DNA from: Spartobacteria bacterium
Lineage (GTDB): Bacteria > Verrucomicrobiota > Verrucomicrobiia > Chthoniobacterales > UBA10450
Assembly: GCA_003169975.1 (NCBI GenBank)
Contig: PNAA01000047.1
Location: forward strand, 1 to 64,000
Direction: 5' to 3'
Length of the DNA stretch: 64,000 bases
Below the pieces are notes generated by a model that saw only the letters and a list, made by a program, of their open reading frames with translations, did not search any database and was not told where the DNA came from. Of the stretch, positions 9,939 to 13,139 are shown piece by piece. The position numbers and the translations under genes are program-made. Within the stretch, counting starts at the first letter, position 1. Every line of letters begins with the position of its first letter.

Positions 9939-10322
9939 ATGAAAATTGTCACCATCATCGCGCGCGTTCTCCTCGGGCTTGTCTTTGTCGTCTTCGGCTT
10001 CAATGGATTCTTCCACTTCATCCCCATGCCGCCGCCACCTCCCGGTAGCCCCGCAGCGCTCTTTTTCACCGCCGTTTCGACCACCGGTTACATGAAGGTG
10101 GTGTTTTTGTTCCAGATCATCGGCGGGCTGCTCCTTCTGCTTAACCTGCTCCCGGTGCTCGGATTGGTGATCCTCTGCCCAATCATCTTTAACATCGTCC
10201 TCTTTCACCTCACGATGGCTCCGAGCGGACTGCCACTCGCCAGCGTCGTCGCGGTGCTCGCGCTCTTCTTGATTGGAATGTACTGGGACCATTACCATCA
10301 TCTTGTCCGGCAGCCGCGGTGA
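9939..10322 (+). CDS. DoxX-family membrane protein
   Basis: A 127-residue integral membrane protein with four predicted helices. It opens MKIVTIIARVLLGLVFVVFG, as in DoxX-like proteins, and carries a proline-rich loop (FIPMPPPPPGSP) after the first helix. DoxX members have varied or unproven roles (thiosulfate:quinone oxidoreductase subunit, redox homeostasis), so no reaction is assigned. Its TGA stop overlaps the GTG of the deacetylase-like gene (GTGA), indicating an operon with coupled translation. The 200 bases upstream contain no gene and one octamer variant (CGTTAGGG at 9821). Confidence 0.8.
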   Translation: MKIVTIIARVLLGLVFVVFGFNGFFHFIPMPPPPPGSPAALFFTAVSTTGYMKVVFLFQIIGGLLLLLNLLPVLGLVILCPIIFNIVLFHLTMAPSGLPLASVVAVLALFLIGMYWDHYHHLVRQPR

Positions 10323-11176
10323 TTCTCTGGCACGATCCCCAGTGCGCGGAATACTCCGCCGCCGGGCATCCGGAACGTCCGGCGCGGGTGTTACGGAGCG
10401 CGGCCCACTTGCAGCAGGCGCATCCGGATTGGGACTGGCGTTTGCCTAACGAAGCTTCGGAAGCAGTCCTGCTCCGCGCGCACGGTGCTGCACACGTCGA
10501 GCGGGTGCGCACGGCGAGCCACGATTTCGATGCCGACACCCCGGCCTACGAAAATATTTTCGCGCATGCGGCGCGCGCTGCCGGTGCGGCCTGCGCCGTT
10601 GCGCAAGCGTCGTTAGGCGGGACACCCGCCTTCAGCCTGATGCGCCCGCCGGGACATCACGCCACCCGCAACCAGGCAATGGGCTTCTGTTTTTTTAATC
10701 ACATCGCCGTGGCCGCGCTCGACGCGCTGGCGCACGGCGCGGAGCGGGTTGCGATCTGGGATTTCGACGCGCACCACGGCAACGGCACCGAAGCGATCGT
10801 GACCGGAAACCCGCGGATCGCCTTCGCCTCAGTCCATCAATTTCCCGGCTATCCCGGGACCGGCTCCCGTTCGTTAGGCAACGTCCACAACTTCCCGGTC
10901 GCCCCTTTTGCGCCGCGGGCCGGGCATCGCGACGCGCTCGCGCGCGCCCTCGCGGTGCTCCTGGAATTCAAGCCCGATCTGTTGCTCGTCTCGGCCGGCT
11001 TTGATGCTTTCGCCGGCGACCCGATCACCCAGATGAGTTTGGAGATTGATGATTTCGCGCTCTTCGGAAAATGGCTCCGTGAAAGTTCCGTCCCGGCCGG
11101 CGCGATTCTCGAAGGCGGCTACAGCGACGATCTCCCGCAGCTGATTGATGCGTTCCTGAGCAACTGGGCGGCTTGA
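10319..11176 (+). CDS. Histone-deacetylase-family amidohydrolase
   Basis: A 285-residue member of the zinc-dependent HDAC/AcuC/acetylpolyamine amidohydrolase superfamily. It shows the active-site histidine pair in RPPGHHA, the metal ligands in WDFDAHHGNG and SAGFDAFAGDP, and the glycine-rich EGGY. Length fits the bacterial class. The substrate could be acetyl-lysine or an acetylated small amine; the sequence does not decide. It starts with GTG overlapping the DoxX stop. Three exact octamers lie in or at the end of this gene (10444 LPNE, 10611 SLGG, 10872 SLGN), a high density for 860 bases. Confidence 0.9.
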   Translation: MILWHDPQCAEYSAAGHPERPARVLRSAAHLQQAHPDWDWRLPNEASEAVLLRAHGAAHVERVRTASHDFDADTPAYENIFAHAARAAGAACAVAQASLGGTPAFSLMRPPGHHATRNQAMGFCFFNHIAVAALDALAHGAERVAIWDFDAHHGNGTEAIVTGNPRIAFASVHQFPGYPGTGSRSLGNVHNFPVAPFAPRAGHRDALARALAVLLEFKPDLLLVSAGFDAFAGDPITQMSLEIDDFALFGKWLRESSVPAGAILEGGYSDDLPQLIDAFLSNWAA

Positions 11177-11182
11177 AGATCG

Positions 11183-12524
11183 TTAGGCCCGAGTCTTCTT
11201 GAAGAGAACCAGCGCACCGGCGATGCCGGAGCCGACACTTGCCGCGAGAATCCCGACCTTCGCGGTTTCAAGTTCGGACGCGGCGCCGAAGGCAAGGTTC
11301 GCGATGAATAACGACATCGTGAAGCCAATTCCACCCAGCACTCCGACTCCGATGATCTGACGCCAGCAGACGCCCTCCGGAAGGATGGCGAGACGGCCGC
11401 GGACGGCGAACCACGAAAAGAGAACGATGCCGATCGGTTTTCCGAGTGCGAGACCGGTGATCACCCCGAGGCTGATCGGACTAACGAGTGCTCCGAACGC
11501 CTCTCCGCCAAAGGCCACGCCTGCATTGGCGAGGGCAAAAATCGGCATGATGGCGTGTTTGATCCAGGGCGCGAGCGCGTGCTCGAAACGCAGCATGGGC
11601 GCTTCCGCATAATGGCAATCCTGCGCGAGCAAGCTCAAGGCCGCGCTCCGGGTGGCGCCGGCCTCGATCACGTTCTCCGCCTCGTTCGCACCACGAAATT
11701 CGTCGAGAATCTTCTGACTCCGCTCGAGGAAAGCGCCGCCATCGAGGCGGCGGCGCGAAGGGATGGTCAGGGCGAGCAGCACCCCGGCCACCATGGCGTG
11801 AATCCCGGACTGCAAAAACGCCAGCCACAAGCCGAAACCGAGGATGGCGTAGATCAGCGGATGCCGCGCGCCCGATGCGATTCATCACGAGCAGCGCGAC
11901 GAAGAACGCCCCGGCCACCGCGAGGCTGATCCAGGAAATTTCCGCGGTATAAAAAAAGGCAATCACCAGGACGGCGCCGATGTCGTCGGCGATAGCGAGC
12001 GCAGCGAGGAAAACCTTGAGCGAAGTGGGCACTCGGTCGCTGAGGAGCGCGAGCACGCCGAGCGCGAAGGCGATATCGGTCGCCATCGGCACGCCCAGCC
12101 GGCCGCTCCCGGGCCGGTCCGATTAAAAAGAAAATAGAAACCGGCTGGAACAAGCATCCCACCGAGGGCGGCGACCAGCGGGAGCGCGGCTTTGCGCAAG
12201 GAAGCTAGTTCGCCAATCAGCGCCTCCCGTTTGATCTCGAGACCGACGAGGAGAAAGAAGATCGCCATCAACCCGTCGTTGATCCAAAAGTGCAGTTCTT
12301 TGGAGAGTTGATGGCCGGCGAAGCCGAGAGTCAGCTTCGTTGTGCCAAAGGCTGAAGTAGGTCGCCGCCCACGGCGAATTTGCCCAGAGAAGCGCGGCCA
12401 CGGTGCAGCCGATGAGGAGAATGCCGCCGGAAGCCTCCAGCTTGGCGAATTCCTCGAATGGTTTGGCCAGCCGTTCGATCGGCGTTTCACCGGGCAGGAG
12501 CAATCTCTTTTGGCTCTTCTTCAT
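11183..12524 (-). pseudogene. nhaA: Na+/H+ antiporter NhaA, interrupted by three frameshifts
   Basis: Joined across frames this is a full-length NhaA, which exchanges sodium for protons at the inner membrane. Recognisable parts in order: start [20 protein letters not shown] at 12524, [87 protein letters not shown] and GGIGFTMSLFIANLAFG. Reading frame changes occur near 12350, near 12110 and near 11865. The paired aspartates (ADD) remain. The TAA stop lies inside an exact octamer copy (11181-11188). Three shifts in 1.3 kb suggest real decay, but locally poor sequence is possible. Confidence 0.88.
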
Positions 12525-12626
12525 TTCGTGCGGGGCTGGTCCATCAGTTGTTCGGTGACGTTCCCCTCCGTCGCGCCAGCAAATTTGTTTGGCAAGCGCA
12601 ACCGGTGTGGCGAATAGTTCGCATTT

Positions 12627-12700
12627 CGGGCCGTAGCACACTCTGCCACCGGACGGACTCGCCGGGGCGAGTTTGGTAGTGGTCGCGACTTCGACTCTCG
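12627..12700 (+). pseudogene. Degenerate tRNA-Pro-like copy
   Basis: This stretch shares tcgggccgtagcaca with the 5' end of the intact tRNA-Pro downstream, then tttggtagtg and ggtcgcgacttcgactctcgcc, which match its D-arm and T-arm with several changes. The acceptor stem no longer pairs. The flank before it (tttggcaagc, gcgaata) also resembles the flank of the real tRNA. I read it as an old duplicated tRNA. Confidence 0.55.
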
Positions 12701-12749
12701 CCAAAATCATTTGGCAAAGGCGACGCCAGCAGCGAATAATCCGGCACGT

Positions 12750-12823
12750 CGGGCCGTAGCACAGCTTGGTAGTGCGCTTGAATGGGGTTCAAGAGGTCGC
12801 GGGTTCGAATCCCGCCGGCCCGA
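12750..12823 (+). tRNA. tRNA-Pro (GGG anticodon)
   Basis: The 74-base cloverleaf has a 7-bp acceptor stem (CGGGCCG with CGGCCCG), a D-arm ending GGTAGTGCG, an anticodon stem CTTGA/TCAAG with loop ATGGGGT (anticodon GGG at 12784-12786), and a T-arm CGGGTTCGAATCCCG. The discriminator base is A. CCA is not encoded. A reading frame runs through it, but its translation is meaningless. Confidence 0.95.
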
Positions 12824-12851
12824 TTCTTTAGAATCGTCGGCGCCAGAGCTC

Positions 12852-13090
12852 ATGTTTCATGTCTATGTCCTGCGGAGCACAAAGACCGGACGCCGATATG
12901 TTGGATCATGTGACGACCTCGAGGTGCGGCTGCGACGACATAATGCTGGTCATTCAAAGGCGACCCGCCATGGTGCTCCATGGATTTTGTCGCACAGCGA
13001 GAGTTTTTCGGATCGCGCTGATGCTGTGAGAAGGAACAATATTACAAAACCGGCCGAGGCCGTGATGAACTCGACAGATTAGATTTGTAG
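12852..13090 (+). pseudogene. GIY-YIG nuclease-family gene, one-base frameshift near its end
   Basis: From ATG 12852 the product starts MFHVYVLRSTKTGRRYVGS, the GIY-YIG motif in the short YhbQ/COG2827 style, with the usual ..RRHNAGHSKATRHGAPW. Near 13033 one base seems to be missing. The literal frame ends in unlike residues at 13082, while restoring a base gives REQYYKTGRGRDELDRLDL and a TAG at 13088-13090. It lies between the intact tRNA-Pro and a partial tRNA copy with a perfect 31-base direct repeat, and the restored stop codon falls inside that copy. This looks like a tiny tRNA-targeting insertion. Family proteins are single-domain nucleases of unclear role. Confidence 0.82.
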
Positions 13091-13139
13091 TGCGGTCGCC
13101 GCGGTGACAGGTCGCGGGTTCGAATCCCGCCGGCCCGAT
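13087..13139 (+). repeat. Partial tRNA-Pro copy, attachment-site-like direct repeat
   Basis: Bases 13109-13139 repeat 12794-12824 exactly (31 bases covering the T-arm, acceptor 3' half and discriminator). The preceding gtagtgcg also matches the D-arm at 12769-12776. The 5' acceptor and the real anticodon arm are absent. Together with the tRNA it brackets a ~315-base segment carrying the GIY-YIG gene. Confidence 0.9.

Follow-up and report, generated by a model that had tools for sequence, protein, structure and literature searches.

The tRNA-Pro locus described here, from a contig of a Spartobacteria bacterium (PNAA01000047.1), is probably a decayed representative of a minimal type of selfish element that resides at tRNA genes, combines a 79-aa GIY-YIG nuclease gene with a broken, palindrome-marked copy of the host tRNA and spreads in a homing-like manner. 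The window, i.e., the whole stretch of DNA that was analysed (64,000 nucleotides), comes from a source genome of 4.47 Mb in 59 contigs (G000; genomes of relatives are likewise labelled G and loci L). Chance is excluded as the origin of the layout, since it recurs in dozens of loci, and comparison of these loci leads us to infer that the element is mobile and that its spread is driven by the nuclease. No account of single-domain GIY-YIG elements on bacterial chromosomes, with tRNA copies that are split and marked by a palindrome, was found in the open-access literature; this minimal type of selfish DNA has apparently not been described before.

The sole tRNA in the whole window is tRNA-Pro(GGG) at 12749-12824 (+), called by ARAGORN, in agreement with the intact tRNA-Pro reported by an earlier reading of the same DNA from its letters alone (hereafter, the sequence-only reading). 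It is preceded by a promoter-like site (12711-12740, +) and followed by a 27-nt spacer (12825-12851, +), which the comparison of empty and occupied loci in relatives marks as the first part of the inserted segment. Thereafter lies the frameshifted nuclease gene (12852-13090, +), delimited from its ORF, Pfam and intact relatives; the GIY-YIG gene of about 240 bases that had been proposed is borne out by the Pfam match (PF01541, E 2.8e-11) of the ORF opening at ATG 12852. The gene is frameshifted by one base after about codon 62, just ahead of the region of the invariant Glu62, and has its in-frame stop at 13080-13082; as this region is thereby taken away, the nuclease of the window is probably inactive. 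The stop predicted from intact relatives is TAG 13088-13090, which falls, as had been read, inside a tRNA fragment, namely GTAGTGCG (13087-13094, +), the 3' piece of the tRNA D-arm that opens the broken tRNA copy. No promoter-like site was found in the spacer ahead of the nuclease gene, so the gene is likely co-transcribed with the tRNA, the promoter of which probably drives its expression.

The broken copy (13087-13139) starts with the D-arm piece and extends to the discriminator at the tRNA 3' end, and in it the 17-nt anticodon arm has given way to the 14-bp palindrome GTCGCCGCGGTGAC (13095-13108, +), placed exactly where that arm would be. The remainder (13109-13139, +) is an exact 31-nt copy of the tRNA-Pro 3' half, from variable loop to discriminator. 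The sequence-only reading had correctly recognised a downstream partial tRNA whose terminal 31 bases equal the tRNA 3' end; nevertheless, the copy is not a plain truncation, as the palindrome swapped in for the anticodon arm had been overlooked. The decayed tRNA-like copy that it had noticed upstream is also real (12626-12702, +, from comparison with the intact tRNA): 12626-12640 are identical to tRNA positions 1-15, the D-arm is present, the D-loop has a hairpin insert (CTCGCCGGGGCGAG at 12658-12671), the anticodon arm is missing and the T-arm is decayed. This copy has its own promoter-like sequence, TTGGCA-18-AATAGT (12589-12618, +), which aligns with the promoter regions of the intact tRNA and of G003, so that the promoter-like site is doubled. 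Further upstream, on the minus strand, overlapping frameshifted ORFs (11183-12490) of an apparent NhaA-type antiporter, identified by eye, separate the tRNA from a histone-deacetylase-like gene (10319-11176); the orthologous site in G003 (L012) lacks them.

Recurrence of this arrangement was examined with a three-sequence profile search of 83 family genomes (mostly draft metagenome assemblies, one per species; the closest named relatives are metagenome assemblies of Verrucomicrobia/Chthoniobacterales), from which the 30 best-scoring loci were fetched. All 30 of these nuclease loci lie just 3' of a tRNA-Pro gene and on the same strand, in line with the proposal that the subfamily would be found beside tRNA genes in related genomes. 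The adjoining tRNA-Pro is called by ARAGORN at 29 of them, the 30th being interrupted solely by two undetermined bases, and all three isoacceptors (GGG, TGG and CGG) are represented. The repeated flanks that had been postulated are likewise present: a near-exact downstream copy of the 3' half of the local tRNA, with at least 28 matching bases, stands behind a palindrome at 27 of the 30 loci, and the remaining three comprise two with a truncated 3'-half copy and one where the contig ends first. The D-arm piece before the palindrome tracks the local tRNA variant (AGTGCG, AGAGCG or AGAACG). Since the pieces flanking the palindrome match the local variant, the broken copies derive from the local tRNA and not from one fixed travelling sequence.

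As a control, 20 lower-scoring GIY-YIG loci of the same family were considered, of which one is near a tRNA (30/30 vs 1/20; Fisher p 7e-13). The tRNA link is therefore a trait of particular nuclease lineages and not of GIY-YIG genes generally, and the notion that all GIY-YIG genes are tRNA-linked was rejected on this count. Some further arrangements were observed in the family. In the source genome, another GIY-YIG gene (L007 1501-1815; G000:C12) has no intact tRNA nearby; the tRNA-like 3' fragment GGTTCTGGGTTCAAGTCCAGTCAACCCA lies behind it, preceded by a hairpin. Decayed GIY-YIG genes of a different lineage lie 3' of tRNA-Gly(GCC) in the congeners G003 (L019) and G002 (L020), where no copy of that tRNA is detectable.

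The comparison of empty with occupied tRNA-Pro loci suggested by the sequence-only reading uncovered both alleles of one site, as is expected of a homing endonuclease, in two pairs of genomes (G022 vs G020; G002 vs G000). At the GGG locus of genus g5, which is empty in G020 (L095) and occupied in G022 (L097), the upstream flanks align, and the native right flank abuts the tRNA where the element is missing and the 3'-half copy where it is present. At the TGG locus, the source genome of the window (L003) lacks the element and its congener G002 carries it. Since empty alleles exist and the breakpoint is exact in the better pair, the proposed element of about 315 bases at tRNA-Pro is supported. 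Orthologues away from tRNAs, a lack of empty sites and a lack of repeated flanks had been named as the signs that would speak against it; all three were tested and none held. Furthermore, a 3'-half copy is present in 10 of 30 tRNA-Pro loci sampled irrespective of the element, one of which (L091) is a remnant with the pseudo-tRNA kept and the nuclease lost. G073 and G055 carry elements at two tRNA-Pro genes each; at their CGG sites the nuclease gene is separated from the tRNA by an older scar, and the distal copy at the G073 CGG site is perfect. Successive invasions, each followed by decay, would leave such a series of scars.

A duplicated tRNA 3' end around an insertion is the classical signature of integrative elements. 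As such a duplication flanks the insertion here, the locus might be taken for the remnant of an element with a tyrosine integrase and an attachment site at the tRNA 3' end, of which a passenger gene alone survives; this reading is disfavoured and highly improbable, as the single gene and the size of about 300 nt recur in dozens of loci without an integrase, 5' halves also occur upstream and the anticodon arm is replaced. Integrative elements and islands are alike in tRNA insertion, in duplication of the 3' part at the far end and in retention of a functional tRNA, whereas here there is no integrase, the unit measures about 315 bp, a palindrome stands for the anticodon arm and mirror-image 5' halves lie upstream. 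The insert encodes the GIY-YIG ORF alone, confirming the reported absence of an integrase, and thus holds neither a site-specific recombinase nor an HUH (Y1) transposase. An integrase-borne island was rejected on the basis of this absence and of the uniform 315-bp unit.

The nuclease comprises 79 aa, of which Y5, Y16, R26, H30 and E62 are invariant among 21 tRNA-linked proteins; the domain and the conserved Tyr, Tyr, Arg and Glu that characterise the GIY-YIG superfamily are all present in these proteins. The AlphaFold model (pLDDT 90.5) is a bare GIY-YIG domain, the catalytic fold alone, with no extra DNA-binding domain in the 79-residue protein. The structures closest to the model are UPF0213 protein BH0048, followed by Slx1 and the I-TevI catalytic domain, and sequence comparison likewise gives UPF0213, Slx1 and I-TevI as the nearest solved relatives. 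UPF0213 and small GIY-YIG proteins (PDB 1ywl, 1zg2) thus share the size and fold of the nuclease; these were solved and deposited as hypothetical, and other small GIY-YIG subfamilies in the family are without a tRNA link.

The intact nucleases are under purifying selection (median pairwise dN/dS 0.14; 16 intact ORFs, 21 usable pairs). On a tree built from the DNA of 31 elements, three changes of the isoacceptor label suffice against a shuffled mean of 14.3, and in genus g14 the CGG elements are nested among its TGG elements; hence, the lineages are mostly isoacceptor-bound, with at least one switch. Purifying selection and clustering by isoacceptor would also suit a vertically inherited GIY-YIG nuclease that serves the host by amplifying or repairing tRNA genes, the broken copies being by-products of amplification. 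Tandem tRNA-copy arrays (at L116, L144 and L151) and the precedent of SegB, which drives tRNA amplification in phage T6 under attack (PMC13096335), point the same way. We nevertheless consider a host-serving role unlikely: presence is patchy, with clean empty alleles within one genus, many copies are frameshifted or deleted, and there is no gain in tRNA dosage, since usually one intact tRNA lies next to non-functional halves.

Under the preferred reading of homing-like spread, the nuclease would cut an empty tRNA gene at its anticodon arm or close by, and the cut ends would bear 5' and 3' tRNA halves homologous to an occupied locus, which would serve as the repair template. Repair would yield an intact tRNA, followed by the nuclease gene and, behind the palindrome, the half left over from the recipient's own tRNA, and the insertion would be tolerable because an intact tRNA remains. 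Such cut-and-repair would account for the locally matched copies and the exact breakpoint between empty and occupied alleles, as well as for the travel of old scars and the spread between isoacceptors.

Several points weigh against homing. Unlike known homing endonucleases, the protein has no additional domain for recognising the tRNA gene. The broken copy lacks the anticodon arm, yet an intact tRNA, presumably the target, is retained beside it in the occupied allele, a respect in which classical homing sites differ. This tRNA could possibly be spared by weak recognition, transient expression or flank-dependent recognition; according to work cited in PMC13096335, the donor allele is cut inefficiently by free-standing GIY-YIG enzymes. 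The tree follows the isoacceptors so closely (three changes) that much of the distribution could reflect vertical inheritance and loss. No homologue was found in the phages, plasmids or viral contigs searched, which could have served as carriers between cells, and the evidence comes mostly from metagenome assemblies, with mobility judged by comparison.

The nearest known counterpart is SegB of T-even phages, a free-standing GIY-YIG homing endonuclease that cleaves DNA inside tRNA genes and co-localises in phages with tRNA genes of a wide isotype range (PMC13096335). The likeness lies in a GIY-YIG gene beside tRNA genes; SegB is, however, a phage enzyme, whereas the present elements occupy bacterial chromosomes, encode a bare 79-aa domain, carry palindrome-marked tRNA halves, keep an intact tRNA and have nuclease lineages tied to particular tRNAs. 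With neither a second DNA-binding domain nor evident site protection, the element is placed as homing-type but outside the SegB group. Group I introns in bacterial tRNA genes also use the anticodon region as their site and may carry a GIY-YIG or other homing enzyme. In contrast to these introns, no splicing is needed here, as an uninterrupted tRNA stands beside the element, and Rfam gathering scans of 25 related loci (a set separate from the window) found no intron family.

The location at tRNA-Pro given by the sequence-only reading holds for the family, but the phenomenon is not confined to tRNA-Pro or to one phylum. A further 58 GIY-YIG loci were drawn from Verrucomicrobiota of other families and from seven genomes outside these lineages, including Terriglobia, Ignavibacteriae, Nomurabacteria, Yanofskybacteria and Patescibacteria. 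At 31 of them an intact tRNA or tmRNA is no more than 200 nt away, in every case on the same strand (sign test 9e-10), and the linked RNAs are Gln, Glu, Gly/Thr, Ala, Tyr, Ile, Lys, Pro, Ser, Leu, His, Met and tmRNA. Of the remaining loci, several carry tRNA fragments on inspection; 3' fragments with palindromic inserts were seen by eye at L141, L142, L124 and L154. At 20 related loci that lack an adjoining intact tRNA, an Rfam scan revealed no other RNA partner, except for the tmRNA of L119, which was known beforehand, and a weak tRNA match in L141. GIY-YIG genes or their remnants were also observed 3' of tmRNA in the source genome (L010 1019-1602; G000:C12) and in two unrelated genomes (L119 and L121). 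One of the wider loci (L162) comes from the single-contig genome G359, which argues against an assembly artefact; both chance and such an artefact were rejected in view of the identical layout in many genomes, G359 included.

The clear partial copies follow a half rule: in 45 of 45 cases, a 5' half precedes the intact tRNA or a 3' half follows it (an automated count that leaves aside two short D-arm pieces preceding a palindrome), and both halves are present at eight loci. At the tRNA-Ser loci L144 and L153 the halves join in the anticodon loop (1-36 with 34-88 and 1-36 with 36-90, respectively). In the broken copies, palindromes that differ by lineage take up the anticodon arm or loop, and in some they lie in the D- or T-loops instead. 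In a protein tree, which has few columns and is reliable for the larger groupings only, six tRNA-Ser-linked nucleases from six families cluster, as do the His-linked and most of the Pro-linked ones. At somewhat below even chances, the elements might constitute a new, multi-phylum mobile class in which a single-domain GIY-YIG nuclease would break one particular tRNA gene within its anticodon-arm region and re-supply that tRNA as an intact copy, leaving a palindrome-capped half, with the palindrome playing a part in recognition; this may be likened to a natural cleave-and-rescue-like strategy at tRNA genes.

The anticodon arm is a common target of anticodon nucleases. The swapped part being exactly this arm, and the nuclease lineages matching particular tRNAs, the system might instead resemble a toxin and antidote, in which the nuclease would cut the tRNA itself (RNA) and the pseudo-tRNA would act as a decoy or the linked tRNA as a rescue copy. 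This is improbable, given that Slx1 and I-TevI, the nearest solved relatives along with the uncharacterised UPF0213, are DNA nucleases, that many copies are halves unable to fold as tRNA, and that palindromes lie in the D- or T-loop of some copies instead.

If the preferred reading of a selfish, homing-like element is true, some uncharacterised small bacterial GIY-YIG genes would be selfish elements preying on tRNA genes, and these would rank among the smallest autonomous mobile elements proposed. It would also account for the tRNA-fragment arrays around bacterial tRNA genes, provide compact nucleases naturally tuned to single tRNA genes and raise the question of how a parasite that targets an essential gene family is yet tolerated.

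The palindrome of the window differs by one base from GTCGCCGCGGCGAC, of which family genomes hold 0-26 copies against 0-1 for the reversed control. An element-specific palindrome was rejected owing to this dispersal. One copy was observed inside a TPP riboswitch of the source genome (L025 1469-1572; G000:C5:196868-196971). The distribution suggests that GTCGCCGCGGCGAC may be a short dispersed palindromic repeat able to settle in structured RNAs. Further lineages likewise possess dispersed palindromes peculiar to them, of the kind present in their tRNA copies; the palindrome thus looks like a lineage-specific repeat that fills the broken anticodon arm. Short dispersed palindromes plus a nuclease gene recall REP/BIME sequences and RAYT, although the enzyme here is GIY-YIG rather than HUH-type and the palindrome sits within a tRNA copy. 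It might be asked whether mobility resides in the palindrome itself (REP-like), with the pseudo-tRNA as its landing site and the GIY-YIG protein as its mobilising nuclease; the dispersal of GTCGCCGCGGCGAC, including the riboswitch copy, the separate palindromes of other lineages and the resemblance of the fold to the structure-specific Slx1 would fit. We give this only a small probability, as G005 (21 copies) and G070 (10) are rich in palindromes without a strong match to, or detectable, tRNA-linked nuclease. Both the palindrome and strong nuclease matches are absent from genera g8-g11, and the correlation of palindrome with nuclease is confounded by phylogeny, as the palindrome-rich G005 and G070 indicate. 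In G005 (L193, L196-L199 and L202), many of the palindromes were observed within a longer intergenic hairpin unit, TCGAGCAGTC-palindrome-CTCGATGCTAAATT...GGCGGCGAAGCCGC, which is itself repeated and constitutes a REP/MITE-like family.
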